Shown here one piece after another: positions 7,595 through 40,386 of a stretch of 64,000 nucleotides of DNA. Positions within the stretch are counted from its first letter, which is position 1. Each line of letters starts with the position of its first letter. Below the pieces are notes generated by a model. It was not told the origin of the DNA. It made no database searches and saw only the letters and a list, made by a program, of their open reading frames with translations. The position numbers and the translations under genes were made by a program. This DNA comes from Gluconacetobacter takamatsuzukensis (GTDB taxonomy: Bacteria; Pseudomonadota; Alphaproteobacteria; Acetobacterales; Acetobacteraceae): assembly GCF_014174275.1 (NCBI RefSeq), contig NZ_JABEQK010000001.1:186001-250000 (forward strand). The letters are read 5' to 3'.

Positions 7595-7761
7595 GCGCTT
7601 TCCTAGTCGCTCATGGCTGTGGGGACGGCCGGAGTGCGTCCGGTAAGATCGCGTTCCCGCTCCAAGAAACAGCGATAGCCGGGGCATTCCACTTTCTCAA
7701 GGACGAAACATGACAAAAAAGGAATGATTGCTGCGAGGGGGCTGTATACGAGCATTGCAAG

Positions 7762-12918: not shown

Positions 12919-15075
12919 TTACGTAATCGTCGCGATGGTCTTGATGCGGGCGCGCGGGTAGATTTCGGCTTGCGAGAGGACCGGGACGCTTGGCCGGACG
13001 CGTTCGACGATCGAGCGCATGGCGTCGCGTACTGGAGAAGAGACGACGATGACCGGCATTTCGCCATTGGTGGAGACGGTATTGAAGGTCTCCCGCAGTT
13101 TTGCGACGAACTGGTTAAGTAATAAGGGCGGCATGGCTAGGCGCCGTTCTTCGCCTTGTCCTGCGATATGGGTCAGGAACTCGCTTTCCCAGTCCGGGGA
13201 CAGGGTGATCATGGGAATATAGCCGTTGGCGCCTTCCAGCCCATGGCAGATCTGCCGGGAAAGGCGGATGCGGACATGGTTGGCCAGGTTCTGCACGCCG
13301 CGCAGCCCCATTCCGTTTCCTTCCTGGATGCTTTCCAGGATGGTCGGGAGGTCGCGGATCGAGACGCGTTCGGCGAGCAGCGATTGCAGGACGCGCTGCA
13401 CCGTGCTCAGCGTAACCTGGGACGGGATCAGGTCGTTGACGAGCTTCTGCTGCTCGCGGGGCAGTTCGTCGAGCAGGGACTGGGTGGCGACATAGGTCAG
13501 GAGGTCCGGAAGATTCTGTCGGACCAGTTCGCTGAGATGCGTGACGATGACGCTGGCCGGATCGACCACGGTGCATTTCAGAACGGTGGCCCGGCCCTTG
13601 ACCGACGGGTCGATCCATACGGCGGGCAGGCCGAACGCGGGCTCGGTCGTCTTGTCGCCGGGCAGCGGCGGGATGCCGCCCGAGGGGCTCATGGCCAGGA
13701 GCTTGCCGGGCTTGGCCTCGCCGGAGCCGATCTCGATTTCCTTCAGCTTGATGATGTATTTCTCCGAGGGCAGGAGAATATTGTCCTGGATCCGGATGGG
13801 GGGCGTCACGAACCCCATTTCGGTGGCGATCGTCCGGCGCAGGGCCTTGATCTGCTCGGTCAGCTGGGAGTTCTCGCCGCTGGTCAGGGGCAGCAGGCCG
13901 AATCCCAGTTCGAGGCGCAGCAGGTCGAGCTTGAGAACTTCGGAAATGGGCGCGGAGGCCGGCTGCTGGGGCGCGGTTTCGGTGATGTCCCCGTCGCTGC
14001 TCTTGATGGGCGTCTTGCGCCGCCACCAGGCGCCCGCGCCGGCCAGGGCGGCGATGGTCAGGAACGGGAAGGCGGGCAGGCCAGGCATCAGGGCGAAGAG
14101 CGTGGCCAGGACGGCGGCCATGGCCATCGGCTTGGGGTTGCCGGCCAGTTGCCGGACCAGCGTGACGTCGGCCGAGCCGTCCGTGCCGCCCTTGGTGACC
14201 ACGATACCGGCGGCGGTCGAGACCAGAAGGGCGGGAATCTGCGACACCAGCCCGTCGCCGACCGTGAGGGTCGTGAAGGTGCTGGCGGCCTCGCTCAGCG
14301 GCATGCCGTGGCGGAGCACGCCGATGGCCAGGCCGCCGATGATGTTGATGACGGTGATGATGATCGCCGCGATCGCGTCGCCGCGCACGAATTTGGCGGC
14401 ACCGTCCATCGCGCCGTAGAAAGTGCTTTCCTCTTCCAGTTCCTTGCGCTTCTGGCGGGCTGCCCGGTCGTTGATCGCGCCCGACGACAGTTCGGCGTCG
14501 ATCGCCATCTGCTTGCCCGGCATGGCATCGAGGAAGAAGCGCGCCGCCACTTCCGCGATGCGGCCCGACCCCTTGGTGATGACCATGAAGTTCACCGCCA
14601 GCAGGATGCAGAACACGATCGCGCCGATGACCACGTCGCCGCCCATCAGGAACCCGCCGAAGGCCGCCACCACGTGGCCGGCGGCATAGGCGCCCTCGCT
14701 GCCATGGCTGAGGATGAGGCGCGTGGTGGCGATTTCGAGCGACAGCCGGAAAAGGGTCGTCAGCAGCAGAAGGGTGGGGAACGAGGTGAATTCCACCGGT
14801 CGTTCCAGGAACAGCGACACCATCAGCACGAGGGCCGACAATGTGATCGACAGGGACAGGCCCATGTCGAGGATGGCCGTCGGCAACGGAATGATCAGGA
14901 GGGACAGCAGCAGCAGCACGCCGACCGCCAGGCCGATATCCGTCCCCGGGATCAGGGAGCGCCAGGAGATCGAGCCCAGGCCGCCCATGCCGCTGGACAG
15001 GAGCGACGAAAATTTCTGCCGCGCGACAGCGGTGCGTTCAGCCAGTTTGCCGTTGCCGGATGGCGCGACGGTCAT
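12919..15075 (-). CDS. flhA: flagellar export gate protein FlhA
   Basis: A 718-residue inner-membrane protein forming the nonameric ring of the export gate. Eight membrane segments lie in the first 330 residues. They contain the FHIPEP-family signature (PTLLLLTTLFRLSLEIATTR, about 100-120) and the charged cytosolic loop with RAARQKRKELEEESTFYGAMDGA (about 205-228). The soluble C-terminal domain (about 380-718) ends with RPSVPVLSQAEIYPRARI. The ATG at 15075 is preferred to a TTG codon at 15093. It is divergent from the glycosyltransferase array and 183 bases upstream of the DUF1217 gene. Confidence 0.98.
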   Translation of the reverse strand: MTVAPSGNGKLAERTAVARQKFSSLLSSGMGGLGSISWRSLIPGTDIGLAVGVLLLLSLLIIPLPTAILDMGLSLSITLSALVLMVSLFLERPVEFTSFPTLLLLTTLFRLSLEIATTRLILSHGSEGAYAAGHVVAAFGGFLMGGDVVIGAIVFCILLAVNFMVITKGSGRIAEVAARFFLDAMPGKQMAIDAELSSGAINDRAARQKRKELEEESTFYGAMDGAAKFVRGDAIAAIIITVINIIGGLAIGVLRHGMPLSEAASTFTTLTVGDGLVSQIPALLVSTAAGIVVTKGGTDGSADVTLVRQLAGNPKPMAMAAVLATLFALMPGLPAFPFLTIAALAGAGAWWRRKTPIKSSDGDITETAPQQPASAPISEVLKLDLLRLELGFGLLPLTSGENSQLTEQIKALRRTIATEMGFVTPPIRIQDNILLPSEKYIIKLKEIEIGSGEAKPGKLLAMSPSGGIPPLPGDKTTEPAFGLPAVWIDPSVKGRATVLKCTVVDPASVIVTHLSELVRQNLPDLLTYVATQSLLDELPREQQKLVNDLIPSQVTLSTVQRVLQSLLAERVSIRDLPTILESIQEGNGMGLRGVQNLANHVRIRLSRQICHGLEGANGYIPMITLSPDWESEFLTHIAGQGEERRLAMPPLLLNQFVAKLRETFNTVSTNGEMPVIVVSSPVRDAMRSIVERVRPSVPVLSQAEIYPRARIKTIATIT

Positions 15076-15285
15076 GCCTTCGGCGGGGTCCAAGGTGCCG
15101 CATTCCCTTTCGTGTGCCCGTGACGCATCCGTTGCGGCATGGCGCCCATGACCGTCGGCCGGTCCGGTTGCCGTCTGGATATATTGCTTGGGCCTGGTTT
15201 GTATTGACGACCAGTACCGTTATAGTCGGGCCAGAGCAAGGCGTGAAAAATGATTCCTGCGGGACGGTTGATGGCGGGAGTTGAC

Positions 15286-16863
15286 ATGGCGGACGGGGCG
15301 CAGGCGAACCCGGTAGACGGTGGGGGCACCACCAGCCTGGACTTTGCGGCCAGCAGGGACGCCCTGCTGCGGTCGCCGACGCCGGACCTGATGTTCCAGA
15401 CCGGGGATGCGTTCTTTGCCGCGCGGCGGGGGGACGAGGCGATCTGCCTGATTCTGGAGGTGGCGTCCCGTCTTCCGGATGAATGGCTGTTGGCGTTGGC
15501 CGGCGTGACGGTGGTCCTGCGCTATACGATCCGGTACGATGTTGCGGACAGTCTGCTGGACATTGCCCTGCGATGCCGGCCGGATGTCGTGGTGGGCCAG
15601 GGGCTGCGGGCGCATGTCCGCATGCTGAAGGGCGATGTCGCGGGGGGATGCGCCCTGTTTTCCGCCCTGCTGCAACGCTATCCGGACCAGCGGGCCGCGA
15701 TCTGCGAGCAGATGTCCATGTCATTTCTCGAAATCGGCTATCCGATGGAGAGCCTGAAGATCCTGCGGTCGCATCTGGAAACCGGCCCCGCGACGGCGGC
15801 GATTCTGGCCAATGTCGGATGTTCCCTCGAACGTCTCAATCGTTCGGCCGAGGCGCTCCCGTGGTTTGAAAAGGCGATCGCGCTGGATTCGACGCAATCC
15901 GAAACGAGGTTCGCCTATGTCTACACCCTGTTGAAGGCCGGCAGGTTGCGCGAGGCATGGCCGCTTTATTTCGAGCGGGCCCTGAGCGTCCTGGACGGGG
16001 CGGCGTGGTACCTGTCGCTGCCGCGCCTGCATCCCGGCGATGAAATAGCGGGGCGCGGCGTCATCCTGTTCTATGAGCAGGCGCTGGGGGATACGCTCCA
16101 GTTTATCCGCTTTGTGCCCGACCTTCTGGCGAAGGGGGCGCGGGTGACGATTCTGGTGCCCCGGCCCCTGGTCCGTCTGCTTGCGCAATCCTATCCCGAG
16201 GCTCAGGTCCGCGAGATCGACGGGTTTGGGTGGGAGGACGGCTATGACTATGCCGCTCCCATTCCGGATCTGCCCTATATCGGGGGAGCGATGTCGCTGC
16301 GGGAGATTCCGGCGCCGATTCCCTATCTGCGGGCCGATCCCGGCGATATCGCGCGCTTTGCTGCCCTGCTGCCGGAGCGTCGGCCGCGGATCGGCCTGGT
16401 CTGGGCCGGCGAGCGACGCGCCAAGTGCGAGCAGATGCAGATGGATCTGCGGCGTTCGACGACGCTGGCGGCGCTGGGGGCGGCGATGACGCCGGTGGAT
16501 GCGACGCTGGTGAGCCTGCAGTTCGGCGGTCCGCGCGGCGAGATTGCGGGTTGGGCCGGGCAGGCACTGTGCGACCCGATGGGTTCGGTGCGGGACATGG
16601 CCGACACGGCGGCGATCATGGCGAATCTGGACCTGGTGATCTCGGTCGATACCTCGCCCGTGCACCTGGCGGGTGCTGTGGGCTGCCCGGTGTGGATGAT
16701 CAGCCGCCAGGATGCCTGCTGGCGGTGGGGAGATGCGGGCGGGCGGTCGCCCTGGTATCCGGAGATGCGCCTGTTCCGGGCGCGGGAGCGCTCGCTGGCT
16801 CCCGTTCTGCAGGAAGTCGGCACGGCGTTGCGGACCTGGGTGGACACCTGGCGTCCGTCCTGA
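15286..16863 (+). CDS. TPR-glycosyltransferase, array member 1
   Basis: A 525-residue cytosolic protein. Residues about 20-250 form helical TPR-like repeats (the clearest is NRSAEALPWFEKAIALD). Residues 255-525 form a GT-B domain of the GT9/heptosyltransferase-like type found in TPR-containing glycosyltransferases: FYEQALGDTLQFIRFVPDLL at about 258, RPRIGLVWAGER at about 365, LDLVISVDTSPVHLAGAV at about 446, and SPWYPEMRLF at about 488. The donor-side loop reads SRQDACWRW. The Caulobacter flagellin glycosyltransferase FlmG has a similar TPR plus GT-B layout, so flagellin or another axial protein is a plausible acceptor, as an inference. The start at 15286 has GGGAG seven bases upstream and fits the other copies; ATG at 15250 is the alternative. 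It is first in an operon of seven. Confidence 0.85.
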   Translation: MADGAQANPVDGGGTTSLDFAASRDALLRSPTPDLMFQTGDAFFAARRGDEAICLILEVASRLPDEWLLALAGVTVVLRYTIRYDVADSLLDIALRCRPDVVVGQGLRAHVRMLKGDVAGGCALFSALLQRYPDQRAAICEQMSMSFLEIGYPMESLKILRSHLETGPATAAILANVGCSLERLNRSAEALPWFEKAIALDSTQSETRFAYVYTLLKAGRLREAWPLYFERALSVLDGAAWYLSLPRLHPGDEIAGRGVILFYEQALGDTLQFIRFVPDLLAKGARVTILVPRPLVRLLAQSYPEAQVREIDGFGWEDGYDYAAPIPDLPYIGGAMSLREIPAPIPYLRADPGDIARFAALLPERRPRIGLVWAGERRAKCEQMQMDLRRSTTLAALGAAMTPVDATLVSLQFGGPRGEIAGWAGQALCDPMGSVRDMADTAAIMANLDLVISVDTSPVHLAGAVGCPVWMISRQDACWRWGDAGGRSPWYPEMRLFRARERSLAPVLQEVGTALRTWVDTWRPS

Positions 16864-18491
16864 TGACAGGCGGAACGGCACGGGTGCGGATGACGGAAAG
16901 CGGGATGACGGCGGAAGGGGCAGCCGACGCTGGAGCGGCGCAACTACTGGATGTCACGGCGTACAGGACGGCCCTGCTGCGGTCGCCGACGCCGGACATG
17001 ATGAGCCGGGTGGGCGACATGCTCTTCGCCGCGCGACAGGAGGTGGAGGCGGTCCGTCTGGTTCTGGAGGTCGCGTCCCGCTATCTGGATGACGGGCGGT
17101 TCAGCCTGGCCGCCGCGATGGCGATCCTGCGCTATACGGTCCGGTACGATATCGCCGAGAGCCTGCTGCGCAATGCCTTGCGGTGCCAGGCGGACAATAT
17201 TCAGGCACAGGCGTTTCTGGCCCATGTCCGCATGGCGCGCGGGGATGTGGCGGACGGGTGCGCCCTGTTCTCCGGGATGATGCGGCGCTATCCGGACGAG
17301 CGGGCCGCGATCTGCGAATACATGTCCACGTCGCTGCTGCAGGTTGGCTATCCGATGGAAAGCCTGAAGATCCTGCAATCCTATCTGGAGACCGGGCAGG
17401 CGACGGCGCTGCTTTTGAAGAATGTCGGTTGCGCGCTGCTGTGCGTCAATCGTTCGGCGGAAGCCATTCCGTGGTACGAGAGGGCGGTCGCCCTGGATGC
17501 GGCGGGAGCAGCGGCGGCCCAGTCCGAATATGCGTGCGCGCTTCTCAAGGCCGGCAGGCTCGGCGAAGGCTGGGCACTCTATGCCCGGCGCGGCCTGTTC
17601 GAGCGCAACCTGATCGCCGGTGACCGGGCAGCGTGGTTTCTGGCCCTGCCGCGCCTGCGGCCTGGCGATGAGGTGGCGGGGCGGCGGATCATCCTGTTCC
17701 AGGAGCAGGGGCTGGGGGATACGCTCCAGTTCATCCGCTTCGTGCCCGACCTTCTGGCGAAGGGGGCGGCGGTGACGATCCTGGTGCCGCGCACCCTGGT
17801 CCGGCTGCTGGCGCAATCCTGTCCGGGGGCATCCGTGCGGGAGGCGAGGTCCTTCGCGCGGGAGGAGGGATATGACTATATCCTTCCCATTCCGGACCTG
17901 CCCCATATTGCCGGCGTGATGTCGGAGCGGGACATTCCGGCGCCCGCTTCATACCTGCGCGCCGATCCCGGCGACGTGGCGCGCTTTGCCGCCCTGCTGC
18001 CGGAGCGGCGGCCGCGGATCGGGGTGGTCTGGGCCGGCGAACGGCGGATGCAATCCGCCCCGGCCCTGCTGGACCAGCGGCGTTCGACGACGCTGGCGGC
18101 CTTGGGGGCGGCGGTGACGCCGGTGGATGCGACGCTGGTGAGCCTGCAGTTCGGCGGCCCCCGCGGGGAGCTCGCGGGCTGGACTGGGCAGGCACTGTGC
18201 GACCCGATGGACGCGGTGCGGGACATGGCCGACACGGCGGCGATCATGGCGAATCTGGACCTGGTCATTTCGGTCGATACCTCGCCGGTGCATCTGGCGG
18301 GTGCTGTGGGCTGCCCGGTATGGATGATCAGCCGCGAGGATGCCTGCTGGCGGTGGGGGGATTCGGGCGAGCGGTCGGCATGGTATCCGGGCATGCGCCT
18401 GTTCCGGGCGCGGGAGCGCTCGCTGGTGCCGGCTTTGCAGGAGGTCGGTGCGGCCTTGCAGATCTGGGTGAAGCAATGGCACCCGTCCTGA
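16863..18491 (+). CDS. TPR-glycosyltransferase, array member 2
   Basis: A 542-residue paralogue of member 1 with the same TPR half (NRSAEAIPWYERAVALD) and GT-B half (FQEQGLGDTLQFIRFVPDLL, RPRIGVVWAGERR, LDLVISVDTSPVHLAGAV). It has distinctive residues in the active-site loop, SREDACWRWGDSGERSAWYP, which it shares only with member 6. A 106-bp block (18321-18426) is identical to 24798-24903 in member 6. The ATG overlaps the stop of member 1 (ATGA), so the two are translationally coupled; an in-frame ATG at 16890 could also serve. Substrates cannot be told from sequence. Confidence 0.85.
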   Translation: MTGGTARVRMTESGMTAEGAADAGAAQLLDVTAYRTALLRSPTPDMMSRVGDMLFAARQEVEAVRLVLEVASRYLDDGRFSLAAAMAILRYTVRYDIAESLLRNALRCQADNIQAQAFLAHVRMARGDVADGCALFSGMMRRYPDERAAICEYMSTSLLQVGYPMESLKILQSYLETGQATALLLKNVGCALLCVNRSAEAIPWYERAVALDAAGAAAAQSEYACALLKAGRLGEGWALYARRGLFERNLIAGDRAAWFLALPRLRPGDEVAGRRIILFQEQGLGDTLQFIRFVPDLLAKGAAVTILVPRTLVRLLAQSCPGASVREARSFAREEGYDYILPIPDLPHIAGVMSERDIPAPASYLRADPGDVARFAALLPERRPRIGVVWAGERRMQSAPALLDQRRSTTLAALGAAVTPVDATLVSLQFGGPRGELAGWTGQALCDPMDAVRDMADTAAIMANLDLVISVDTSPVHLAGAVGCPVWMISREDACWRWGDSGERSAWYPGMRLFRARERSLVPALQEVGAALQIWVKQWHPS

Positions 18492-18505
18492 AGGGACCAC
18501 AATGA

Positions 18506-20113
18506 ATGGTGGAAACGGGTGCGATGGACCATGCAGGGCGTGACGGGATGTCTGCTTCGGGACGCGACGTGCGTGTCCAAGAGGCTCAGGCAGACGCGCC
18601 GCTGCCCCTGACGCCGGAAGAAAGCCTGCGGATCAGTGAAGACCTGATGGCCGCAGGGCTGGTGGATGAGGCGGTCGGCCTGCTGCTGGAGACGGTGGAG
18701 CGTTATCCGGAGGATTGGCAGCATGGTGTTGCCGCTGCGACATTCATTCTACGCCACACCGCCGTCTACGATCTGGCTGAAAAGATCGTAGGCATTGTTT
18801 TGCGCCATGCTCCGGACAGCATTCCGGCGCATGGTCTTCTGCTGCATATCCGTGTCGCGCGCGAGGATATCGCCGGCGGGCGCGCGTTGTTTGCGGAACT
18901 GCTGGACCGTTACCCCGAGGGGACGAGCCTGTTCTTCGAACAGATGTCGACGGCGCTGTTGCAGGTCGGCTGCCCGTTGGAAAGCCTGCAGATTCTGATG
19001 CCGTGTCTTGAAAGCGGCATGGTAACGCCGACGCTGCTGAAAAATGCGGGATGTGCCTTCTATTGTCTCGACCGGTCGAAAGACGCCATTCCCTGGTATG
19101 AAAAGGCCCTTGCTCTCGATTCGACGGATTATGGAATCACGTTCGGCTATGCCTGTACGCTGATCAAGGCTGGGCGGTTGCAGGCAGCCTTGCCGCGCTA
19201 TTTCGAGCGCGATCTGAAGCTTGCGGATCGGGAGGCATGGTACCTGTCCCTGCCGCGCCTGCGTCCGGGGGATGATGTCGCGGGGCGCAGGATCGTTCTT
19301 TACCAGGAGCAGGGGCTGGGGGACACGATCCAGTTCATCCGCTTCGTGCCCTTTCTGCTGGCACGGGGGTGCAGGATCGCGGTCGTTGTGGCCCCTACGC
19401 TGGCGCGCCTGTTTCGGCAATCCTGTCCGCAGGTTTCCGTCCATGAAACAGGGTGTTGGGCGCCGCAGGAGGGATATGATTATGCCACGCCGATCCCGGA
19501 TCTGCCCTATATCGCCGGGGTGATGTCGGTCGTGGATATTCCGGCACCGATTCCTTATCTGCGGGCCGATCCCGACGATGTTGCGCGCTTTGCCGCCATG
19601 CTGCCGGTGCGCCAGCCGCGCATCGGCCTGGTCTGGGCAGGGCAATGGCGGAGCCAGCTCATTCACGCGCTGGTGGATCGGCGGCGGTCGACAACGTTGG
19701 CGGCAATGGGGGCCGCGTTCACGCCGATCGATGCGGCATTGGTCAGCCTGCAACGCGGCGACCCGCGCGGCGAGATCGCGGGGTGGAATGGCCAGGCTTT
19801 GTGCGATCCCATGGAACAGGTTCGCGACATGGCGGATACGGCGGCGATCATGGCAAGCCTGGACCTTGTGATTTCGGTCGATACGGCACCGCTGCATCTG
19901 GCGGGTGCCCTGGGGTGCCCGGTGTGGCTGATCAGCCGCCAGGATGCCTGCTGGCGCTGGGGCGATGCGGGCGACCGGTCGCCCTGGTACCCTACGATGC
20001 GCATCTTCCGCGCGGGGGAACGCGCGCTCGGCCCTGTTCTACAGGAGGTCGGGAAAGCCTTGCGGACCTGGGTGGCGACCTGGAAACCGACGCGGATGGA
20101 TATCTCGGAATGA
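18506..20113 (+). CDS. TPR-glycosyltransferase, array member 3 (most diverged)
   Basis: A 535-residue protein with the same layout but the greatest sequence difference from its neighbours. The N-terminus carries its own version of the helical repeats (LTPEESLRISEDLMAAGLV), the TPR reads DRSKDAIPWYEKALALD, and the GT-B half has VLYQEQGLGDTIQFIRFVPF, RPxIGLVWAGQW and LDLVISVDTAPLHLAGAL. The loop before the last motif is SRQDACWRWGDAGDRSPWYP. AGGGA lies about ten bases before the ATG and 14 bases separate it from member 2. The divergence suggests it is an older copy or has a different acceptor or sugar; this is an inference. Confidence 0.84.
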   Translation: MVETGAMDHAGRDGMSASGRDVRVQEAQADAPLPLTPEESLRISEDLMAAGLVDEAVGLLLETVERYPEDWQHGVAAATFILRHTAVYDLAEKIVGIVLRHAPDSIPAHGLLLHIRVAREDIAGGRALFAELLDRYPEGTSLFFEQMSTALLQVGCPLESLQILMPCLESGMVTPTLLKNAGCAFYCLDRSKDAIPWYEKALALDSTDYGITFGYACTLIKAGRLQAALPRYFERDLKLADREAWYLSLPRLRPGDDVAGRRIVLYQEQGLGDTIQFIRFVPFLLARGCRIAVVVAPTLARLFRQSCPQVSVHETGCWAPQEGYDYATPIPDLPYIAGVMSVVDIPAPIPYLRADPDDVARFAAMLPVRQPRIGLVWAGQWRSQLIHALVDRRRSTTLAAMGAAFTPIDAALVSLQRGDPRGEIAGWNGQALCDPMEQVRDMADTAAIMASLDLVISVDTAPLHLAGALGCPVWLISRQDACWRWGDAGDRSPWYPTMRIFRAGERALGPVLQEVGKALRTWVATWKPTRMDISE

Positions 20114-21708
20114 CAGAACGACATGATGATGCGCCCGGCGGGACCCTGGATCTTCAGGCCTGCAAGGAGGCCCTGGTGCGGTCGGCCTCGGCGGAGGAAA
20201 TCATCCGGACCGGCGACAGGCTTTTCGCCGAGGGGCGCGGTCTCGACGCGGTCCGTCTGGTTCTGGAGGTGACGGCCCATCATATGAATGACTGGCGGGT
20301 CAGCCTTGCCGGGGCGGATGTCATCCTGCGCCATACCGTCAGTTACAATATCGTCGAGACCTTGCTGCGCAATGCGCGCCGATGCCATCCGGATCATATT
20401 CAGACGCAGGCACTTCTGGCGCATGTCCTGATGGCAGGGGGAGATATCGCGGGGGGATGTGCCCTCTTTTCCGAGATGATGCAGCGTTATCCGGACGAAC
20501 GGGGGACGATCTGCGAACATATGTCGATGTCGTTTCTGGACACCGGCTACCCGGCGGAAAGCCTCCAGATCCTGTTGTCGCATCTTGAAACCGCACGGCC
20601 GACAGTGGCGATGCTGAACAATGTGGCATGTTCCCTCCACCGCCTGAACCGTTCGGCCGAGGCAGTCTCGTGGTACGAACAGGCGTTGGCGCTGGACCCC
20701 GCGCGACCGGAAATCCGGTTCGGGCAGGCCTGTTCGCTGTTGAAGGCCGGCAGGCTGCGCGAGGGATGGCCGCTCTTTTTCGATCGGATCCTGAGCGTCA
20801 GGAACGGAGCGGCCTGGTTCTTGTCCCTGCCGCGCCTGCGCCCAGGCGACGAGGTGGCGGGGCGCCGGATCATCCTGTTCTACGAGCAGGGACTGGGCGA
20901 TGCGATCCAGTTCATCCGCTTTGTGCCCGGTCTTGTGGCGAAAGGGGCCGAGGTGACGATTCTCGTGCCGCAACCTCTGGTTCGTCTGCTGGCGCAATCC
21001 TATCCGGCGGCGTCGGTTCGTGAGATCGACGGGTTCGGCCGCGAGGACGGGTATGACTATGCGGTGCCGATTCCGGATCTGCCCTACATTGCCGGTGTGC
21101 TGTCGATGCACGATATCCCGGCGCCGATCCCCTATCTGCGGGCCGATTCTGGCGATGTGGCGCGTTTCGCGGCCCTGCTGCCGGCGCGCCGGCCGCGCAT
21201 TGGCCTGGTCTGGGCGGGAGAAACGCGGACACGATCGGAGCATGTTCTGGCGGATCGGCGGCGTTCGACGACACTCGCCGCGATGGGGGAGGCGCTGACG
21301 CCGGTGGAGGCGACACTGGTCAATCTCCAGTTCGGTGCGCCGCGTGGCGAGATTGCGGGCTGGAGAGGCCAGGCCGTGTGCGACCTGATGGGGGACGTGC
21401 GTGACCTGGCCGACACGGCTGCGATCATGGCGAATCTGGACTTGGTGATCTCGGTCGATACGTCGCCGCTGCATCTGGCGGGTGCCGTGGGGTGCCCTGT
21501 ATGGCTGGTCAGCCGGTGGGATGCCTGCTGGCGCTGGGAAAATTCGGGCGACCGGTCGCCCTGGTATCCGGGAATGCGCATTTTCCGGGCCCAGGAACGC
21601 TCCTTCGTCCCGGTTCTACAGCAGGTGGGGGCGGCCTTGCGGAAATGGGTGGCATGCCGGCAGCCTGGTGACGGTCATGGTGCCGAAAGTGGCGGGTGGC
21701 AGGCATGA
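20110..21708 (+). CDS. TPR-glycosyltransferase, array member 4
   Basis: A 532-residue paralogue. The TPR half contains NRSAEAVSWYEQALALDP and the GT-B half contains FYEQGLGDAIQFIRFVPGLV, RPRIGLVWAGET and LDLVISVDTSPLHLAGAV. The active-site loop reads SRWDACWRWENSGDRSPWYP, where Trp replaces the Gln or Glu of other copies, as in member 7. The ATG overlaps the stop codon of member 3 (ATGA). Starts further upstream in this frame would run through member 3 and are not credible. Confidence 0.85.
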   Translation: MTERHDDAPGGTLDLQACKEALVRSASAEEIIRTGDRLFAEGRGLDAVRLVLEVTAHHMNDWRVSLAGADVILRHTVSYNIVETLLRNARRCHPDHIQTQALLAHVLMAGGDIAGGCALFSEMMQRYPDERGTICEHMSMSFLDTGYPAESLQILLSHLETARPTVAMLNNVACSLHRLNRSAEAVSWYEQALALDPARPEIRFGQACSLLKAGRLREGWPLFFDRILSVRNGAAWFLSLPRLRPGDEVAGRRIILFYEQGLGDAIQFIRFVPGLVAKGAEVTILVPQPLVRLLAQSYPAASVREIDGFGREDGYDYAVPIPDLPYIAGVLSMHDIPAPIPYLRADSGDVARFAALLPARRPRIGLVWAGETRTRSEHVLADRRRSTTLAAMGEALTPVEATLVNLQFGAPRGEIAGWRGQAVCDLMGDVRDLADTAAIMANLDLVISVDTSPLHLAGAVGCPVWLVSRWDACWRWENSGDRSPWYPGMRIFRAQERSFVPVLQQVGAALRKWVACRQPGDGHGAESGGWQA

Positions 21709-23291
21709 CGGATCGGACTCTGGCAGGGGCGGAGATCAGCGAGGAAGCACCGCTGGTCCTGGATGTGCAGATGTGCCGGGAAGCTCTGCTGCGCGCGCCG
21801 GATCCGGAAACGATGATTCGGATGGGCGACGCGTTTTTTGCCGCGGGGCGGGGCCTTGATGCGCTCCGTCTGATTCTGGAAGTGACGTCGCGGCAACTGG
21901 AGGACTGGCGGCTCAGTCTGGCCGGGGCGGATGTCATCCTGCGCCAGACCGCCGCCTACGATATCGTGGAGACCCTGCTGCGCAACGTTCTGCGTCTCCA
22001 GTCGGATAATCTGCTGGTGCAGGCCTATCGGGCGCGCGTGCTCATGGCGGGCGGCGATGTGGCGGGCGGACATGCGCTGTTCGACGACATGCTGCGCCGC
22101 TATCGCTCTGCGGACCAGCAGGTCATGATCTGCGAATTGATGTCGAATTCGTTTCTCGATGTCGGCCATCCGGGGGAGAGCCTGAAGATTCTGCTCTCTC
22201 ACCTTGAAACCGGGCGCGCGACGTCGGCGATCCTCGGCAATGTTGGATGTTCGCTCGGATATCTCAACCGGTCGGCGGAAGCCCTGCCATGGTTCGAGAA
22301 GGCTCTGGCCCTGGATGCGGCGGATGCCGGAATCCGGCTCGGCTATGCCTGCACGCTGATCAAGGCCGGCCGGCTGGATGCGGGATGGCCGCTCTATGCC
22401 GATCGGGTTTTGAGCGTTGAGGACCCGGAACCGTGGTACCTGTCCTTGCCGCGCCTGCGCCCGGGTGACGATGTGGCGGGGCGTGGGATTGTCCTGTTCC
22501 AGGAGCAAGGGCTGGGAGACACGCTCCAGTTCATCCGCTTCGTGCCTGATCTGCTGGCGAAGGGGGCGCGGGTGACGATCCTGGTGCCTCGACCGCTGGT
22601 CCGTCTCATGACGCAGTCTTATCCCACGGTTTCGGTGCGCCAGATCGGATGTTTCGGGCCGGAGGACGGGTATGCGTATGCCCTGCCGATTCCGGATCTA
22701 CCTTATATCGTCGGCATGATGTCGCTGCGGGAGATTCCGGCGCCGATTCCCTATCTGCGGGCCGATCCCGGCAATGCCGCGCGCTTTGCCGCCCTGCTGC
22801 CGGCGCGCCGGCCGCGGATTGGCCTGGTCTGGGCCGGAGATCGGCGAACGCGGTCGGCACATGTGCTGGTTGATCTGCGGCGTTCGACGACGCTGGCGGC
22901 GCTGGGGGCGGCGGTGACGCCGGTGGATGCGACGCTGATGAGCCTGCAGTTCGGCGGCCCGCGTGGAGAGATTGCGGGCTGGACCGGCCAGGCGCTGTGC
23001 GACCCGATGGGCGCGGTGCGGGATATGGCTGATACGGCGGCGATCATCGCGAACCTTGATCTGGTGATCTCGGTCGATACCTCGCCTGTGCATCTGGCTG
23101 GCGCCGTGGGTTGCCCGGTGTGGATGATCAGCCGCCAGGATGCCTGCTGGCGCTGGGGAGATGCGGGCGACCGGTCGCCCTGGTATCCGGACATGCGTGT
23201 GTTCCGGGCACGGGAGCGGTCATGGGGGCCTGTGCTGGCGGAGGTTGGGGCGGCCTTGCGGAACTGGGTGGAGCATTGGCGGCTGCGCTGA
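21705..23291 (+). CDS. TPR-glycosyltransferase, array member 5
   Basis: A 528-residue paralogue with NRSAEALPWFEKALALD in the TPR half, then FQEQGLGDTLQFIRFVPDLL, RPRIGLVWAGDRR and LDLVISVDTSPVHLAGAV. The loop is SRQDACWRWGDAGDRSPWYP, as in members 1 and 3. The ATG overlaps the member 4 stop (ATGA); a GTG at 21696 is less likely. After its stop there is the longest spacer in the array, about 115 bases, which could hold an internal promoter or a degraded remnant. Confidence 0.85.
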   Translation: MTDRTLAGAEISEEAPLVLDVQMCREALLRAPDPETMIRMGDAFFAAGRGLDALRLILEVTSRQLEDWRLSLAGADVILRQTAAYDIVETLLRNVLRLQSDNLLVQAYRARVLMAGGDVAGGHALFDDMLRRYRSADQQVMICELMSNSFLDVGHPGESLKILLSHLETGRATSAILGNVGCSLGYLNRSAEALPWFEKALALDAADAGIRLGYACTLIKAGRLDAGWPLYADRVLSVEDPEPWYLSLPRLRPGDDVAGRGIVLFQEQGLGDTLQFIRFVPDLLAKGARVTILVPRPLVRLMTQSYPTVSVRQIGCFGPEDGYAYALPIPDLPYIVGMMSLREIPAPIPYLRADPGNAARFAALLPARRPRIGLVWAGDRRTRSAHVLVDLRRSTTLAALGAAVTPVDATLMSLQFGGPRGEIAGWTGQALCDPMGAVRDMADTAAIIANLDLVISVDTSPVHLAGAVGCPVWMISRQDACWRWGDAGDRSPWYPDMRVFRARERSWGPVLAEVGAALRNWVEHWRLR

Positions 23292-23405
23292 TGGAGGCGC
23301 GGTTGCGAGGCCGCGACCGGACATTCAGGGAGGGAACGATCACGGGCGTATGGTTGCGCCCGATGGCGCGCTGCATTGGGCGGGAGTGGCATGAGGGGGG
23401 ATGGA

Positions 23406-24968
23406 ATGGCTGATCTTGCGCCTGGTGTGGATGCCGCGGTTCCGGACGTGCGGGCCTGCAGGGAGGCGCTGCTGCGGTCGCCTACGCCGGAGCTGATGCT
23501 GCGGACGGGCGATGTGCTCTTTGCCGCGAAGCAGAGGCTGGAGGCCATTCGGCTGATCCTGGAGGTGACGTCCTGCCATCTGGATGACTGGCGGCTCAGC
23601 CTTGCCGGGGCGATGACGATTCTGACCCATTCATCCCGTTACGATATCGCCGAGACGTTGCTGCGCAACGCGTTGCGCCATCAGCCCGAGCATATTCCAA
23701 TCCAGGCCTATCTGGCGCATGTCCGCATGGCGGGAGGCGATATCGCGGGGGGGAAGGCCCTGTTCTCCGGGATGGTGCGGCGCTATCCGGCCCAGCAGGC
23801 CATGGTCTGCACCTATATGTCGGTCTCGTTGCTGGCATTCGGCTTTCCGATGGAGAGCCTGCAGATCCTGTTGCCGTGCCTTGAGAGCGGGTATGTAGAC
23901 GCTTCGATCCTGAGCAATATCGGATGTTCCCTGGAACATCTCAACCGCTCCGCCGACTCCTTTTCCTGGTACGAACAGGCCCTGGCGCTGGACCCGACGC
24001 GTGCGTTGATACGGTTCGGCTATGCCTGCGCATTGCTGAAGGCGGGCCGGTTGCGCGAGGGATGGCCGCGCTTTTTCGACCGGGAGCTGACTGTCGGTGA
24101 CAGGGGGGCGTGGTACCTGGCGCTGCCGCGCCTGCGGCCTGGCGATGAGGTGGCGGGGCGGCGGATCATCCTGTTTCAGGAACAGGGGCTGGGGGACACG
24201 ATCCAGTTCATCCGCTTCGTGCCCGATCTTCTGGCGAAAGGGGCAGAGGTGACGATTCTGGTTCCCCGGACCCTGGTCCCGCTGCTGGCGCGATCTTATC
24301 CCGGGGCGACGGTCCGGGAGATCGACGGGTTTGGCCGCGAAGACGATTACGCATATGCCGCCGCGATTCCCGATTTGCCCTATATCGCCGGGGTGATGTC
24401 GATGCACGATATTCCGGCGCCGGTTTCCTATCTGCGGGCCGATCCCGGCGACGTGGCGCGCTTTGCTGCCCTGCTGCCGGAGCGGCGGCCGCGGGTCGGG
24501 CTGGTCTGGGCCGGGGAGCAACGGGTGCGGTCGGACGATGCCCTGGTGGACCGGCGGCGTTCGACGACGCTGGCGGCGCTGGGGACGGCGGTGACGCCGG
24601 TGGATGCGACGCTGGTGAGCCTACAGTTCGGCGGTCTGCGCAGCGAGATTGCGGGCTGGACCGGGCAGGCACTGTGTGACCCGATGGGGGCGGTGCGCGA
24701 CATGGCCGACACGGCGGCGATCATGGCGAATCTGGACCTGGTGATTTCGGTCGATACGTCGCCGGTGCATCTGGCGGGTGCCGTGGGCTGCCCGGTGTGG
24801 ATGATCAGCCGCGAGGATGCCTGCTGGCGGTGGGGGGATTCGGGCGAGCGGTCGGCATGGTATCCGGGCATGCGCCTGTTCCGGGCGCGGGAGCGCTCGC
24901 TGGCTCCCGTTCTGCAGGAGGTCGGCGCGGCCTTGCGAATCTGGGTGAAGACCTGGCGCCCATCTTGA
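23406..24968 (+). CDS. TPR-glycosyltransferase, array member 6
   Basis: A 520-residue paralogue with NRSADSFSWYEQALALDP in the TPR half, and FQEQGLGDTIQFIRFVPDLL, RPRVGLVWAGEQR and LDLVISVDTSPVHLAGAV in the GT-B half. Its loop SREDACWRWGDSGERSAWYP matches member 2 base for base over 106 bp. The following bases (gctcccgttctgcagga) match member 1 instead, a mosaic pattern expected from gene conversion. The start at 23406 has a purine-rich AGGGGGGATGG upstream; ATG at 23391 is the alternative. Confidence 0.85.
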   Translation: MADLAPGVDAAVPDVRACREALLRSPTPELMLRTGDVLFAAKQRLEAIRLILEVTSCHLDDWRLSLAGAMTILTHSSRYDIAETLLRNALRHQPEHIPIQAYLAHVRMAGGDIAGGKALFSGMVRRYPAQQAMVCTYMSVSLLAFGFPMESLQILLPCLESGYVDASILSNIGCSLEHLNRSADSFSWYEQALALDPTRALIRFGYACALLKAGRLREGWPRFFDRELTVGDRGAWYLALPRLRPGDEVAGRRIILFQEQGLGDTIQFIRFVPDLLAKGAEVTILVPRTLVPLLARSYPGATVREIDGFGREDDYAYAAAIPDLPYIAGVMSMHDIPAPVSYLRADPGDVARFAALLPERRPRVGLVWAGEQRVRSDDALVDRRRSTTLAALGTAVTPVDATLVSLQFGGLRSEIAGWTGQALCDPMGAVRDMADTAAIMANLDLVISVDTSPVHLAGAVGCPVWMISREDACWRWGDSGERSAWYPGMRLFRARERSLAPVLQEVGAALRIWVKTWRPS

Positions 24969-25011
24969 AGGGGGGCGGCAGTCAGGTTCGGCGTTTGGGG
25001 ACCGGGTGGCG

Positions 25012-26649
25012 ATGAGGGGGAAGAGGATGGAGGGGCTTGTGCCCGAGATGGATGTCTCCGCCCTGGATATGCAGGCCCGCAGGGAGATCCTGCTGCGGTC
25101 GCCGGTGCCGGCAACGATGGTCCGGATGGCCGACGCGCTTTTTGCTGCCGGGAAGGGGCTCGATGCGGTTCGCCTGGTGCTGGAGGTGGCATCCCATCAG
25201 TTGAACGACTGGCGGTTCAGCGTGGCCGCTGCGACGGCGCTGCTGCGCTATACCGTCCGTTACGATATCGTCGAGGCCTTGCTGCGCAATGTCCATCGTC
25301 ATCGGCCGGACGATGTGCTGGCGCAGGTCCTGCATGCGTATGTCCAGCTGATGAAGGGAGATGTCGGAGGGGGATTGGCCCTGTTTTCGGCGCTGATGCG
25401 GCGCTGTTTCGATGAGCGGGCCATGATCTGCGAATATATGTCGATGGCGTTGCTTCGTATCGGTCAGCCGGAACAGACTCTGGCGTGCCTGCAATCGTAT
25501 CTGGAGAGCGGGCCGATGACGGCGGCGATCCTGAACAATCTGGGATGTGCGCTCGAACGCCTCAATCGGTCCGCTGAAGCCATTCCCTGGTATGAAAGGG
25601 CTCTGGCGCTTGAGGCGGGACGGCCGGAAATCAGCTTCGGGTATGCCAATACGCTGTTGAAGGCCGGCAGGCTGCACGAAGCATGGCCGCTTTATTTCGA
25701 GCGGGCCCTGAGTGTCATGGACGGGACGGCTTGGTACCTTTCCCTGCCGCGCCTGCGCCCCGGCAATGATGTGGCGGGGCGACGGATCATCCTGTTCCAG
25801 GAGCAGGGGCTGGGGGACACGATCCAGTTTATCCGTTTCGTGTCCGATCTTCTGGCGAAGGGGGCGGAGGTGACGATCCTCGTACCCCGCCCTCTGGTTC
25901 GCCTGCTGGCGCAATCCTATCCGGGGGTCTCTGTGCATGAAACGGGATGGATTGGGGAGAAAGAGCGGTACGATTACGGAATGCCCATTCCGGACCTGCC
26001 GTATGTGGCGGGCGTGATGTCGATGCAGGAGATTCCCGCGCCGATTCCCTATCTGCGGGCCGATCCCGGCGATGTCGCGCGTTTTGCCGCCATGCTGCCG
26101 GCGCGCCGGCCGCGCATCGGGCTGGTCTGGGCCGGCGAGCGGCGGGAGGGGGCGGCGGATGTTCTGGCGGATCAGCGGCGGTCGACGACGCTGGCGGCGC
26201 TGGGGGCGGCGGTAACGCCGGTGGATGCAGTGCTGGTGAGCCTGCAGTTCGGCGCTCCGCGCGGTGAGATCGCGGGCTGGATGGGTCAGGCCGTTTGCGA
26301 CCCGATGGTGGGAGTTCGCGACATGGCCGACACGGCGGCGATCGTGGCGAACCTCGATCTGGTGATTTCGGTCGATACGTCGCCGCTGCATCTGGCTGGC
26401 GCCATGGGCTGCCCGGTGTGGCTGATCAGCCGGTGGGATGCCTGCTGGCGGTGGGGGGATGCGGGCGATCGGTCGCCCTGGTATCCGGCCATGCGTCTGT
26501 TCCGGGCGCAGGAACGATCGTTCGCGCCGGTTTTGGGCGCGGTCGGCGCGGCAGTGCGGGACTGGTCAGGCCGCTGGCACGCCGCGGAAGCTGACGGAAA
26601 CGATCCTCAGCCGGTCGGTCCGGCCAGGGGGACCGGACTGGCCCGGTAG
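25012..26649 (+). CDS. TPR-glycosyltransferase, array member 7
   Basis: A 545-residue paralogue, the last of the run. The TPR half has NRSAEAIPWYERALALE; the GT-B half has FQEQGLGDTIQFIRFVSDLL, RPRIGLVWAGERR and LDLVISVDTSPLHLAGAM. The loop is SRWDACWRWGDAGDRSPWYP, with Trp as in member 4. It has a C-terminal tail of about 20 residues that the other copies lack. This tail is encoded in a 43-base stretch that overlaps, tail to tail, the lytic transglycosylase gene on the other strand. Starts at 25012 and 25027 are both possible. Confidence 0.84.
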   Translation: MRGKRMEGLVPEMDVSALDMQARREILLRSPVPATMVRMADALFAAGKGLDAVRLVLEVASHQLNDWRFSVAAATALLRYTVRYDIVEALLRNVHRHRPDDVLAQVLHAYVQLMKGDVGGGLALFSALMRRCFDERAMICEYMSMALLRIGQPEQTLACLQSYLESGPMTAAILNNLGCALERLNRSAEAIPWYERALALEAGRPEISFGYANTLLKAGRLHEAWPLYFERALSVMDGTAWYLSLPRLRPGNDVAGRRIILFQEQGLGDTIQFIRFVSDLLAKGAEVTILVPRPLVRLLAQSYPGVSVHETGWIGEKERYDYGMPIPDLPYVAGVMSMQEIPAPIPYLRADPGDVARFAAMLPARRPRIGLVWAGERREGAADVLADQRRSTTLAALGAAVTPVDAVLVSLQFGAPRGEIAGWMGQAVCDPMVGVRDMADTAAIVANLDLVISVDTSPLHLAGAMGCPVWLISRWDACWRWGDAGDRSPWYPAMRLFRAQERSFAPVLGAVGAAVRDWSGRWHAAEADGNDPQPVGPARGTGLAR

Positions 26650-27506
26650 GACGCCAGGGCCCGGCCCCGCATGCCACTGGTTGCTGGTCTGCGCAGAACG
26701 GGCTGGGAGACGTGGCTGAAGCCCTGGAAGGGGTGGAATGGCCGGGCCGGCGCGGGGAGGCTTTCCGCCTCGCCATCCGGCTGGTCGGCATCCGCGATCG
26801 TTTGCGGCTGCACCATTTTCGGCATGACCGGATGCGGGAAGGCCGGCGTGCCGGCGAAGAGCGGATGGGGGGGCTTCTGTGGGTCCTGCCCGTCTTGCGG
26901 AATCGCCCAGGCCTCCAGCACTTTCCATTGATAGGGAGTGCCGATGCCCGGCGTCTGCGAATGGTAGGCGGCGGCGGCGCGGGGCCAACTGCCCGTCTTG
27001 TCGTGCATTTGCAGCAGGAAGCGGCCGGCATATTGGGTGTTGGCCATCGGATCGAACGCCTGGTCGAGAGAGGCGAAGGCATCGGGGTGCTGTTGCAGAT
27101 TGACCTGCATGCATCCGACGTCGATCGACTGGATACCCTGTAGACGCAACGTCGCTACGGCCGCGATGGCGTCGGCGCGCGTCGGATAATAATGGCCGAT
27201 CCCGCCAGCCGTAATGGTCCACGGCCATGGGGCGATCGTGCCGTCGGGGTCCGGGCGGCCGCTTTCTACCCGGCCCATGGCATAGAGAAAACCTTCCGGA
27301 ATATGCATGGCGCGTTCAACCTGCCCGGTCGCCGCCACGCAGAGGGCGGCCTGGGGCGTTCGGGCGGAAGCCGGCCCGGGAGCATGGACCAGCACGGCGG
27401 CAGCTACCGTCGCCCACCATGCGGAACGATACGGGGCCGCTTTTGTGCGGAGCCATGGCCGGGGGCCTGACGTCTCGGGACGTTCGGGATGAGCGTTTCT
27501 GGTCAT
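26607..27506 (-). CDS. lytic transglycosylase (SLT family), probably for flagellar rod passage
   Basis: A 299-residue secreted enzyme that would cleave peptidoglycan glycan strands. After a hydrophobic N-terminal segment (WWATVAAAVLVHAPGPASA, about 30-48) comes the SLT domain (about 55-190). It has the catalytic Glu in LYAMGRVESGRPDP, then GIQSIDVGCMQVNLQQHP, FDPMANTQYAGRFLLQMHD and AAAAYHSQTPGIG. The last 100 residues are Pro-rich and probably disordered. The FlgJ in this locus (29113) lacks a muramidase domain, so this protein may supply that activity, as in other alphaproteobacteria. It overlaps array member 7 by 43 bases. Confidence 0.85.
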   Translation of the reverse strand: MTRNAHPERPETSGPRPWLRTKAAPYRSAWWATVAAAVLVHAPGPASARTPQAALCVAATGQVERAMHIPEGFLYAMGRVESGRPDPDGTIAPWPWTITAGGIGHYYPTRADAIAAVATLRLQGIQSIDVGCMQVNLQQHPDAFASLDQAFDPMANTQYAGRFLLQMHDKTGSWPRAAAAYHSQTPGIGTPYQWKVLEAWAIPQDGQDPQKPPHPLFAGTPAFPHPVMPKMVQPQTIADADQPDGEAESLPAPARPFHPFQGFSHVSQPVLRRPATSGMRGRALASYRASPVPLAGPTG

Positions 27507-27980
27507 GCGATCATGATGTGCGGATGCCTGTCTCTACCGCATTTCCGGGATGTTCCACAACCTTGCCCGGGTGTCTTTCGTATCGGCTACGGATGAATCC
27601 TGCTGAAATACATGCATGATGAAGTGGATTTTCTGGCTGCGCATGGTTTGTCACGCATGAATCCAGCGCCGTTATTGAAGGCGATCCACACCTGAAAAAC
27701 CACCGTAGAACAAATAGGTAATATTGCGCGTGTACTGTATCGGCTGATTCGGACCGTCTGGCCGGCTTCGGCCTCTTTTCGCGGTCGGGGGCATTGAATG
27801 TCGTGGTCCGGCAGCGTATTCTGACGCATCCCTTGGGCATGTTGCAGAACGCCATGGCTCGAAATACATAAGGTGACCAGTGTCCATGAGGAATTGCCTC
27901 AAGGTGGCCAGCAGATATCGCGACCGGCCTGACAGGCATGACGGACCATTCGGTTGCCTTTCCGTTCAGGAGGTGAGGGC
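27507..27980. other. intergenic region between divergent genes
   Basis: About 470 bases between the lytic transglycosylase (minus) and flgI (plus). The GC content is lower than in the flanking genes, especially around 27690-27730, so promoters for both are expected here. No convincing small gene or named binding site was found. Confidence 0.4.
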
Positions 27981-29105
27981 GTGAGGCGTTCGCGGCGGAT
28001 TGTGGCCATGATCGTCACGGCCTTCTTTCTGGCCGGCGTATTTCCGGTCTCGCCGGCCGATGCGGCGATGGTCAGGGTAAAGGATATCGTCGACTATGAA
28101 GGCGTGCGCGACAACCAGCTTGTCGGGTACGGACTTGTCGTCGGGTTGAATGGGACGGGCGATCGTCTGACGAATACGATCTTTACCCGCGAGACGTTGA
28201 TCAGCATGCTGAACCGTCTTGGCGTGAATATCCGTGATCGCGAAGTGCAGCTTCAGACGCATGACGTTGCCGCAGTCATGGTGACGGCAACCCTGCCGCC
28301 TTTCTCGCATGGTGGCGGGCGTATCGATGTGACCGTCTCGGCGGCCGGCGATGCGCGCGACCTGACCGGCGGCACGCTTCTGGTGACCCCGCTTCAGGCT
28401 GCGGATGGCGAGGTTTATGCCGTCGCCCAGGGATCGCTGGTGACCAATGCGGTTTCGGCGGGCGGTGCCGGTGCCTCCCTGACGCAGAATGTGCCGACAT
28501 CCGGCCATATCGCCAATGGTGCGGTCGTCGAGCGCGAGGTGCCTGTGAACCTGGGGGCGACCCGGGTTATCCATCTTTCGCTCCGCAATTCCAACTTCAC
28601 GACGGCGAACAGGATTGCCACCGCGATCAACCGTTCCATCGGTCGCGGGATGGCGCGGGTGGATGATCCGCGCACCATTGCCATCGACCTGTCCGGCCGT
28701 GAGGCGGCGGAGACCCTTTACCGGATCGGGGACCTGACGATCGAGCCGGATACGATGGCCAAGGTCATTGTCGATGAGGCGAGCGGCACGATCGTCATGG
28801 GCGACAATGTCCGCATCAGCACGGTCGCCATCGCCCAGGGCAATCTGACGATCCAGGTTACGGAAGCGCCCGTGGCCTCCCAGCCCGGCCCGTTCTCGAA
28901 CGGTACGACCGCCATTCTGGCGCGTACGCAGATTGCCGCCAGTACCGACAGTTCGCATCGTCTGGGGATCTTGCGCGAGGGGCCGACTCTTTCCACGCTC
29001 GTATCGGGTATGAACGCCCTGGGAATGGGGCCGAGGGATATGATCAGCATCCTTCAGGCCATCAAGGCTGACGGCGCCCTTCAGGCTGATCTCGAAGTAA
29101 GGTAG
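27981..29105 (+). CDS. flgI: flagellar P-ring protein FlgI
   Basis: A 374-residue secreted protein that forms the P ring around the rod in the peptidoglycan layer. A signal peptide (about 1-28, IVAMIVTAFFLAGVFPVSPADA) is followed by the family start VRVKDIVDYEGVRDNQLVGY and GLVVGLNGTGD. Later signatures are MLNRLGVNIRD, AAVMVTATLPPFSHGG and the C-terminal LVSGMNALGMGPRDMISILQ. The GTG start at 27981 is chosen because a very strong AGGAGGTGAG lies just upstream; a TTG at 27954 has nothing comparable. It is the first gene of flgI-flgJ-flgN. Confidence 0.97.
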   Translation: MRRSRRIVAMIVTAFFLAGVFPVSPADAAMVRVKDIVDYEGVRDNQLVGYGLVVGLNGTGDRLTNTIFTRETLISMLNRLGVNIRDREVQLQTHDVAAVMVTATLPPFSHGGGRIDVTVSAAGDARDLTGGTLLVTPLQAADGEVYAVAQGSLVTNAVSAGGAGASLTQNVPTSGHIANGAVVEREVPVNLGATRVIHLSLRNSNFTTANRIATAINRSIGRGMARVDDPRTIAIDLSGREAAETLYRIGDLTIEPDTMAKVIVDEASGTIVMGDNVRISTVAIAQGNLTIQVTEAPVASQPGPFSNGTTAILARTQIAASTDSSHRLGILREGPTLSTLVSGMNALGMGPRDMISILQAIKADGALQADLEVR

Positions 29106-40085: not shown

Positions 40086-40386
40086 GATAAATTCTCCGTC
40101 CTGGCTATCCTGGGCGTGCTCCAGGTGAAGGCCAGAAGACCGGGAAATGGCTAAGAGAAAGTTACCAGCTTCACATGACGGGCGATTTTCGCGCGCTGTC
40201 CGGTAGGGAGAGAGACGAAGACCGGAAGGCGGTACCCGCCCGCGAAACGGTTCGCCAAATTCCGCGATTGCCATGCGGGGTTTGGATTTGCCGTCCCTGA
40301 TTTCCTGTCCTGGACGGGGATGGTCTTGGGGCGTGGCTTGAGGTACATTGCGTGGCGTCAAACGTGACGAATAGTGGACGGTGTTG
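40086..40386. other. divergent promoter region, flagellin and flaF
   Basis: About 300 bases between the flagellin (minus) and flaF (plus) genes. Promoters for both should lie here. No clear sigma-54, sigma-28 or CtrA-box sequence was recognised by eye. Confidence 0.4.

Follow-up and report, generated by a model that had tools for sequence, protein, structure and literature searches.

Several described systems resemble, each in part, the genes analysed here. FlmG of Caulobacter is a 596-residue protein with a tetratricopeptide repeat (TPR) half and a GT-B half that is needed for flagellin modification; its TPR half binds flagellins, and the modification requires pseudaminic acid (PMC7591256). 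The same paper calls acceptor choice by cytoplasmic O-glycosylation systems poorly understood (PMC7591256). TibC, a member of the BAHT enzymes, is GT9-like and modifies protein (PMC4358343), the OGT/SPINDLY proteins of family GT41 place a TPR region before a GT-B domain, and WaaC and WaaF share the GT-B fold. In this study, a window of 64,000 nucleotides (nt) from Gluconacetobacter takamatsuzukensis (genome of 3.78 Mb in 35 contigs; contig 1, positions 186001–250000) was analysed, in which seven consecutive genes, g1 to g7, encode paralogous TPR-glycosyltransferase (GT) proteins beside the flagellar gene flhA. We consider it moderately probable that they are flagellar-cluster GT9-like protein O-glycosyltransferases with one donor chemistry and several acceptors or sites.

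The array comprises seven intact plus-strand paralogues of 525–545 residues according to the open reading frame (ORF) list and translations, with full-length pairwise identities of 57–74% over 21 pairs. All are TPR-GT9-like paralogues, g3 being the most diverged: g1 lies at 15250..16863 (537 residues from 15250, or 525 from the ATG at 15286), g2 at 16863..18491 (542 residues), g3 at 18524..20113 (529 residues; alternative start 18506), g4 at 20110..21708 (532 residues), g5 at 21705..23291 (528 residues), g6 at 23391..24968 (525 residues; alternative start 23376), and g7 at 25012..26649 (545 residues; alternative start 25006). ATGA overlaps join g1/g2, g3/g4, and g4/g5, while the remaining gaps depend on the start codon chosen, being 14 or 32 nt for g2/g3, 84 or 99 nt for g5/g6, and 37 or 43 nt for g6/g7. 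The initial annotation of this stretch had described seven tandem same-strand TPR-GT genes with ATGA overlaps at three of six junctions and short spacers elsewhere, and the ORFs, identities, Pfam matches, and coordinates bore this out; a row of seven paralogues of this kind is not a chance pattern. It had also named two invariant sequence blocks, among which LDLVISVDTxPxHLAGA was found in all seven copies and RPxxGxVWAG in six, g3 having QP instead of RP. Scans for sigma-54 boxes gave four matches at one mismatch vs. 5.4 expected, none of them upstream of g1, and sigma-70 and terminator scans stayed at or below chance.

The TPR plus GT-B architecture proposed earlier was confirmed by both Pfam and modeling. 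TPR matches were obtained in all seven proteins, as was a 31–33 residue match to GT9 (PF01075), which scored 19.6–21.6 bits on the window copies, just below the 22-bit cut-off, and, when the whole genome was searched, 22.4–22.8 bits in three copies. An AlphaFold2 model of g1, built with 62 aligned relatives, reached a predicted local distance difference test score (pLDDT) of 92.7 and a predicted TM-score (pTM) of 0.90; helices between residues 32 and 241 can be read as six TPRs, residues 269–537 form the predicted GT-B domain, and residues 1–26 are of low confidence. In VIA-align comparisons the GT half was nearest to 3tov (Z 18.3, 252 residues, 2.9 Å), followed by WaaF (1psw, Z 17.5), TibC (4rap, Z 16.3), and WaaC (2h1f, Z 16.2), these four GT9-type entries superposing at a root-mean-square deviation (rmsd) of 2.9–3.1 Å; chloroplast NDH-complex chains (Z 14.8–15.8) and TPR proteins (13.2 and lower) came after them. 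Consistently, hhalign aligned the GT-half profile with that of 13 ordinary Gluconacetobacter GT9 enzymes at 94.7% (E 6e-8, 201 columns), placing Asp281 on the GT9 Gly-Asp (GD) motif and DTxPxHLAGA on NDTGxMHLAAA, although the GT half by itself, searched by sequence against the PDB, returned no GT9 chain. Invariant positions in the 63-sequence alignment are G280, D281, R287, L310, G382, W385, G387, D461, H472, W491-R492-W493, W502, and Y503. By analogy with TibC, whose candidate catalytic base Asp-110 is described from superposition with WaaC and MurG (PMC4358343), Asp281 may be the catalytic base of the array proteins. The GT half is thus GT9-like by predicted fold and by sequence profile, in answer to the question of GT9 or GT41 affinity left by the earlier annotation.

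Foldseek on the whole model ranked the GT41 proteins SPINDLY and OGT first, yet with TM-scores by query length of only about 0.2–0.35 and rmsd values of 11–25 Å, and we read this ranking as the common layout of TPR followed by GT-B. Apart from the TPR domain of OGT, no GT41 chain occurred among the 50 VIA-align entries listed, a result that by itself is still compatible with GT41. The GT41 profile PF13844 matched none of the seven proteins at E 0.1, which speaks against GT41 membership by sequence; the same profile does match a protein of another alphaproteobacterial locus (L272:11172-13106). In fold class the GT half of TibC agrees with that of the array (Z 16.3, rmsd 3.0 Å, 246 residues). 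TibC is a dodecamer, however, whose N-domain is a beta-barrel and whose iron finger is made of Cys 339, 342, 358, and 370 (PMC4358343); the array proteins have a TPR solenoid. Membership of the BAHT/TibC group through a four-Cys iron finger with CxxC was rejected as well: none of the alignment columns conserved in 90% of the 63 relatives is a Cys, and Cys 191, 441, 479, and 490, which are common to the seven copies, show no CxxC spacing. The GD and DTxxxHLA motifs of the ordinary GT9 enzymes of the genus align with the array proteins, which fall just under the Pfam GT9 cut-off. WaaC and WaaF (Z 16–17.5) lack a TPR region, and their acceptor is a lipid.

As to the sugar donor, the initial annotation had pointed to FlmG, and a FlmG-type flagellin transferase using pseudaminic or a similar nonulosonic acid would account for the N-terminal TPR half, the C-terminal GT-B half, the length of about 530–600 residues, and the flagellar locus (PMC7591256). 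The donor chemistry did not hold. NeuB (PF03102) was matched in none of the 14 Gluconacetobacter genomes, one of them 87% complete, while the Caulobacter control was positive; pseudaminic acid as used by FlmG, which needs NeuB (PMC7591256), and NeuB-made nonulosonic acids in general are therefore very unlikely donors here. Further, the GT half of the array is GT9-like, the likeness to FlmG being one of layout, and one FlmG handles six flagellins (PMC7591256), whereas seven enzymes stand here with one flagellin in the window. The alphaproteobacterial locus L272 bears on the same point. It carries flagellin, flbT, and genes of three Pfam families that we take to be PseB-, PseC-, and PseF-like, and on the minus strand (L272:8954-13959) two TPR proteins lie close together with them. 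The first, a 644-residue TPR protein (L272:11172-13106) with a GT41 match of 34 bits, stands next to flbT and about 4 kb from flagellin, and by synteny only it may be FlmG's kind; it was not matched by the GT profile of the array family (A4), whereas the second, a separate 417-residue TPR-GT9 protein, was. TPR-GT41 and TPR-GT9 proteins can therefore coexist in one flagellar cluster. A FlmG-type enzyme with nonulosonic acid is scarcely credible for the array. ADP-heptose is a possible donor, as a guess typical of the family: HldE exceeded its cut-off in 13 of the 14 genus genomes, this one included, and here it lies beside a GmhB-like gene that is under its own cut-offs, with GT9 genes nearby. 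SIS_2 was over its cut-off in six of the 14 genomes, this one not among them.

The flagellar setting proved to extend across the acetic acid bacteria. A close form of the gene, defined by a match better than 1e-120 (a cut set after the gap had been seen, the next match being 4e-85), was present in 30 of 297 Acetobacteraceae genomes, at most four candidates being scored per genome, so that higher counts could not arise. All 30 carriers are FlhA-positive, and none of the 61 FlhA-negative genomes among the 297 has the close form (Fisher p 0.0007). Within the six carrier genera, the form was found in 30 of 30 FlhA-positive genomes and in none of the 11 identifiable FlhA-negative ones (G011, G043, G102, G230, and seven of genus g55), and it lies no more than 1 kb from flhA in 25 of the 27 genomes in which both positions were listed. 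In carrier genera, the gene is present with FlhA and near it, and absent without it. Flagellar context was seen in 33 loci of acetic acid bacteria, of which 32 are distinct because L043 and L124 are the same genome; they contain one or two copies each, 31 of them beside flhA and two (L123 and L128) beside the transglycosylase-flgI pair; the stretches of L048 and L051 stop before flgI. Two copies occur in seven Acetobacter loci and one in A. pomorum (L053). In A. syzygii, two tandem copies form a single ORF of 1186 residues (L046:9665-13225, plus strand).

This linkage bears on the possibility that the array encodes polysaccharide or lipid glycosyltransferases that stand in the flagellar cluster by chance. 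GT9 enzymes commonly act on the lipopolysaccharide (LPS) core, and members of the present family also occur away from flagellar genes. However, within the six genera the gene was found only with FlhA, and next to flhA, and a large TPR domain is unusual in LPS core enzymes, which leaves such a role quite improbable.

Copy number sets this genome apart from its relatives. Among 14 Gluconacetobacter genomes, close-form copies number seven here, one or two in twelve others, and zero in G011, in which FlhA was not matched; the survey of relatives suggested by the initial annotation thus gave seven copies against one or two in 12 of 13 genus-mates. A tree of the seven copies with 47 ORFs (400–700 residues, bit score at least 330) and six outgroups, from which fused, split, or over-long ORFs (L046, L055, and one of L047) were left out, united the seven in one clade (100/98), together with two unlinked g3-like copies, from G. 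dulcium and G. liquefaciens, which group next to g3 (100/100). Because of these two, either the expansion predates the species, with partial loss elsewhere, or a g3-type gene moved. The array is mostly a single-clade, lineage-specific tandem expansion of a flagellar-cluster gene kept by relatives. With a mean dS (synonymous divergence) of 0.57–0.73 among them, the copies are not recent. An identical run of 106 nt in g2 and g6 is a trace of gene conversion.

The divergence among the copies was then compared with that of orthologues. In paralogue pairs the GT halves are 69–86% and the TPR halves 42–62% identical, and the mean ratios of nonsynonymous to synonymous divergence (dN/dS) are 0.47 for the TPR and 0.28 for the GT half, against 0.29 and 0.17 in orthologues. 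The paralogue values are about 1.6-fold those of orthologues in both halves, a rough figure since the orthologue pairs have higher dS. This excess would suit a mostly neutral tandem expansion under relaxed constraint with most copies dispensable; but seven intact genes, mean dN/dS values of 0.28–0.47, invariant catalytic blocks, and an age indicated by the dS values above make such an expansion highly improbable.

Within the TPR half, the A helices (residues 45–57, 79–92, 114–126, 145–161, 183–195, and 217–229) differ more among paralogues than the B helices do, with mean mismatches of 0.507 vs. 0.383 (ratio 1.32, p = 0.004 in a post hoc comparison), the excess being located mainly in repeats 3–6. 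The corresponding ratios in four orthologue sets were 0.97 (12 sequences), 1.02 (seven), 0.75 (four), and 0.88 (nine Bombella-like sequences). TPR A helices line the ligand groove. The copies thus seem to vary where the TPR would bind its ligand. This pattern, though only suggestive, agrees with several acceptors or sites and favors a difference in these over one in sugars. The initial annotation had proposed a multi-acceptor or multi-sugar system: the first part gains a post hoc hint from the A helices, while several sugars are not supported because the GT half is the conserved half.

A simpler explanation is that of dosage or redundancy, in which all seven enzymes would serve the same acceptor, for example flagellin, with the same sites and sugar, and the copies would supply more enzyme or recombine. 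The high identity of the GT halves and the 106 nt shared by g2 and g6 agree with it, as do relatives that manage with one or two copies and the one flagellin in the window. The low identity of the TPR halves, and differences that fall on the A helices more than they do in orthologues, speak against it, and we regard it as rather unlikely.

Under the reading that we favor, that of several acceptors or sites with one donor chemistry, the array would encode soluble cytoplasmic protein O-glycosyltransferases. The N-terminal TPR solenoid would dock a flagellar export substrate, and, still ahead of export, the C-terminal GT9-like GT-B domain would glycosylate its Ser/Thr residues from a nucleotide-sugar donor common to all copies. 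With the same catalytic chemistry but diverged docking faces, the seven copies would probably divide several acceptors or sites rather than sugars, flagellin, FlgE, a repeat-bearing DUF1217 protein, and others being possible ones.

A number of results weigh against this reading. The view that the TPR half diverged while the GT half was conserved, and hence that new acceptors arose, had to be dropped, since the ratio of N-terminal to C-terminal dN is 2.27 in paralogues (21 pairs) vs. 2.06 in single-copy orthologues of Gluconacetobacter and genus g55 (66 pairs), although 1.23 in Bombella-like orthologues (36 pairs); with the TPR half evolving about twice as fast in single-copy orthologues too, the contrast between the halves is mostly baseline. 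The A/B comparison was made after the helix pattern had been seen and at the level of sites, which are non-independent, and swapping the A and B labels per repeat gave p = 0.09. The close form is missing from 206 of 236 FlhA-positive genomes, which makes it an accessory of some genera that flagella in general can do without. Extra copies in three genus-mates, G. dulcium, G. liquefaciens, and G. johannae (L127/L041, L131/L042, and L129/L044), have no flagellar neighbours. Outside the close acetic-acid-bacteria loci, a flagellin profile built on acetic-acid-bacteria seeds matched in only five of 85 stretches, comprising 46 named loci and 39 others (L078, L106, L109, L268, and L272 being the five), so that the family as a whole is not confined to flagellar settings. 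For the heptose route, GmhA (TIGR00441) was over its cut-off in one of the 14 genus genomes, which is not this one.

The GT profile matched 154 of 389 alphaproteobacterial genomes at 1e-25, with at most six candidates scored per genome, and tandem or fused TPR-GT arrays were seen in many of the loci read; an order-level search of six genomes drew on the same family and contributed little. In Ignavibacteriales and in Oryzomonas, relatives of the GT domain immediately precede flagellin, with flbT and flaF following in Oryzomonas. In Oryzomonas japonica (L078, 5671-14302), several units of the same family lie in a row upstream of flagellin, flbT, and flaF, but they are fused into ORFs of 849 and 1469 residues beside flagellin, whereas seven separate genes stand here beside flhA. 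Tandem TPR-GT arrays thus already exist elsewhere, some beside flagellin. A metagenomic contig (L113) holds ten TPR-GT ORFs in a row, with no flagellin match in the stretch.

Among the best matches listed in the open-licence PMC literature, searched by titles and the starts of abstracts, no description of such an array or of flagellar glycosylation in acetic acid bacteria was found. Here a single genome supplies seven natural versions of the same modular enzyme, alike in a conserved catalytic half and differing more on the docking helices, which could serve directly for swap and binding tests. The array, along with the GT-A-like gene for another transferase in this cluster, suggests that acetic acid bacteria glycosylate flagellar proteins by a route independent of NeuB.

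This candidate partner gene (6830..7606, minus strand) lies between motB and fliJ, both identified by Pfam, and is kept in other acetic acid bacteria at 58–91% identity. Its product carries an invariant DxD (D77-A78-D79 in alignment A6), and weak Anp1/GT62 matches were obtained in 16 of 18 sequences (best E 0.0084); Pfam gave no match at 0.01, and nothing meaningful came from the PDB by sequence. In a structure comparison, based on a poor model (pLDDT 59.8), GT-A glycosyltransferases ranked first.

On the upstream side of the array, the divergent flhA (12919..15093, minus strand; PF00771, E 2.2e-246) marks the conserved site, as its adjacency in relatives shows. The array had been placed between flhA and flgI, which holds for the flhA side; direct adjacency to flgI (27954..29105, plus strand, by Pfam) does not, as a lytic-transglycosylase gene (26607..27506, minus strand), convergent with g7, intervenes. 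The two genes share 43 nt at the 3′ end of g7, and the position of the transglycosylase gene is kept in relatives. Among the flagellar neighbours named earlier, FlhA, FlgE, FlgD, flagellin, the DUF1217 protein, and FlgI were recovered by Pfam, and FliK scored 23 bits, below its cut-off of 29.8. The count of one flagellin is correct within the window; just upstream of it lies a flgL-like gene with a bare Flagellin_C match.

Three Ser/Thr-rich products are candidate acceptors, all encoded on the minus strand: the DUF1217 protein (9691..12735; 31% Ser+Thr), the hook protein FlgE (33437..34843, by Pfam; 31%), and flagellin (39087..40217, PF00669/PF00700; 26%). The DUF1217 protein of 1014 residues contains four tandem FlgE-D2-like repeats that are 45–52% identical to each other; the repeat profile was built from these four and scores them by construction, and independent evidence comes from Pfam (three stretches) and NCBIfam (four stretches). 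Among its orthologues, those of Asaia and of six other Gluconacetobacter have one strong repeat, sometimes with a weak one in addition, and those of the remaining six Gluconacetobacter read have no D2-like repeat. One could imagine a glycosylation code in which each GT9-like enzyme, perhaps an O-heptosyltransferase, docks its own axial protein or repeat and which arose alongside the fourfold repeat expansion, an idea that we regard as unlikely and speculative. The window belongs to the only genome read with both four repeats and seven copies, a single coincidence, and GT copy number showed no trend with repeat number in the others, which combine one or two copies with no repeat, one repeat, or one and a further weak one. 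The FlgE proteins of relatives carry one or two D2-like repeats; that of the window has none by profile and only weak BLAST similarity.

A distant TPR-GT9-like relative (label GT8; L136:9764-11200, minus strand, upstream of the window) encodes 478 residues at about 33% identity, with TPR and a 21-bit GT9 match, and stands in the same flagellar cluster directly after flgK and the flgL-like gene. Its counterparts lie after the flgL-like gene in genome G009 and between fliF and flgH in genome G013.

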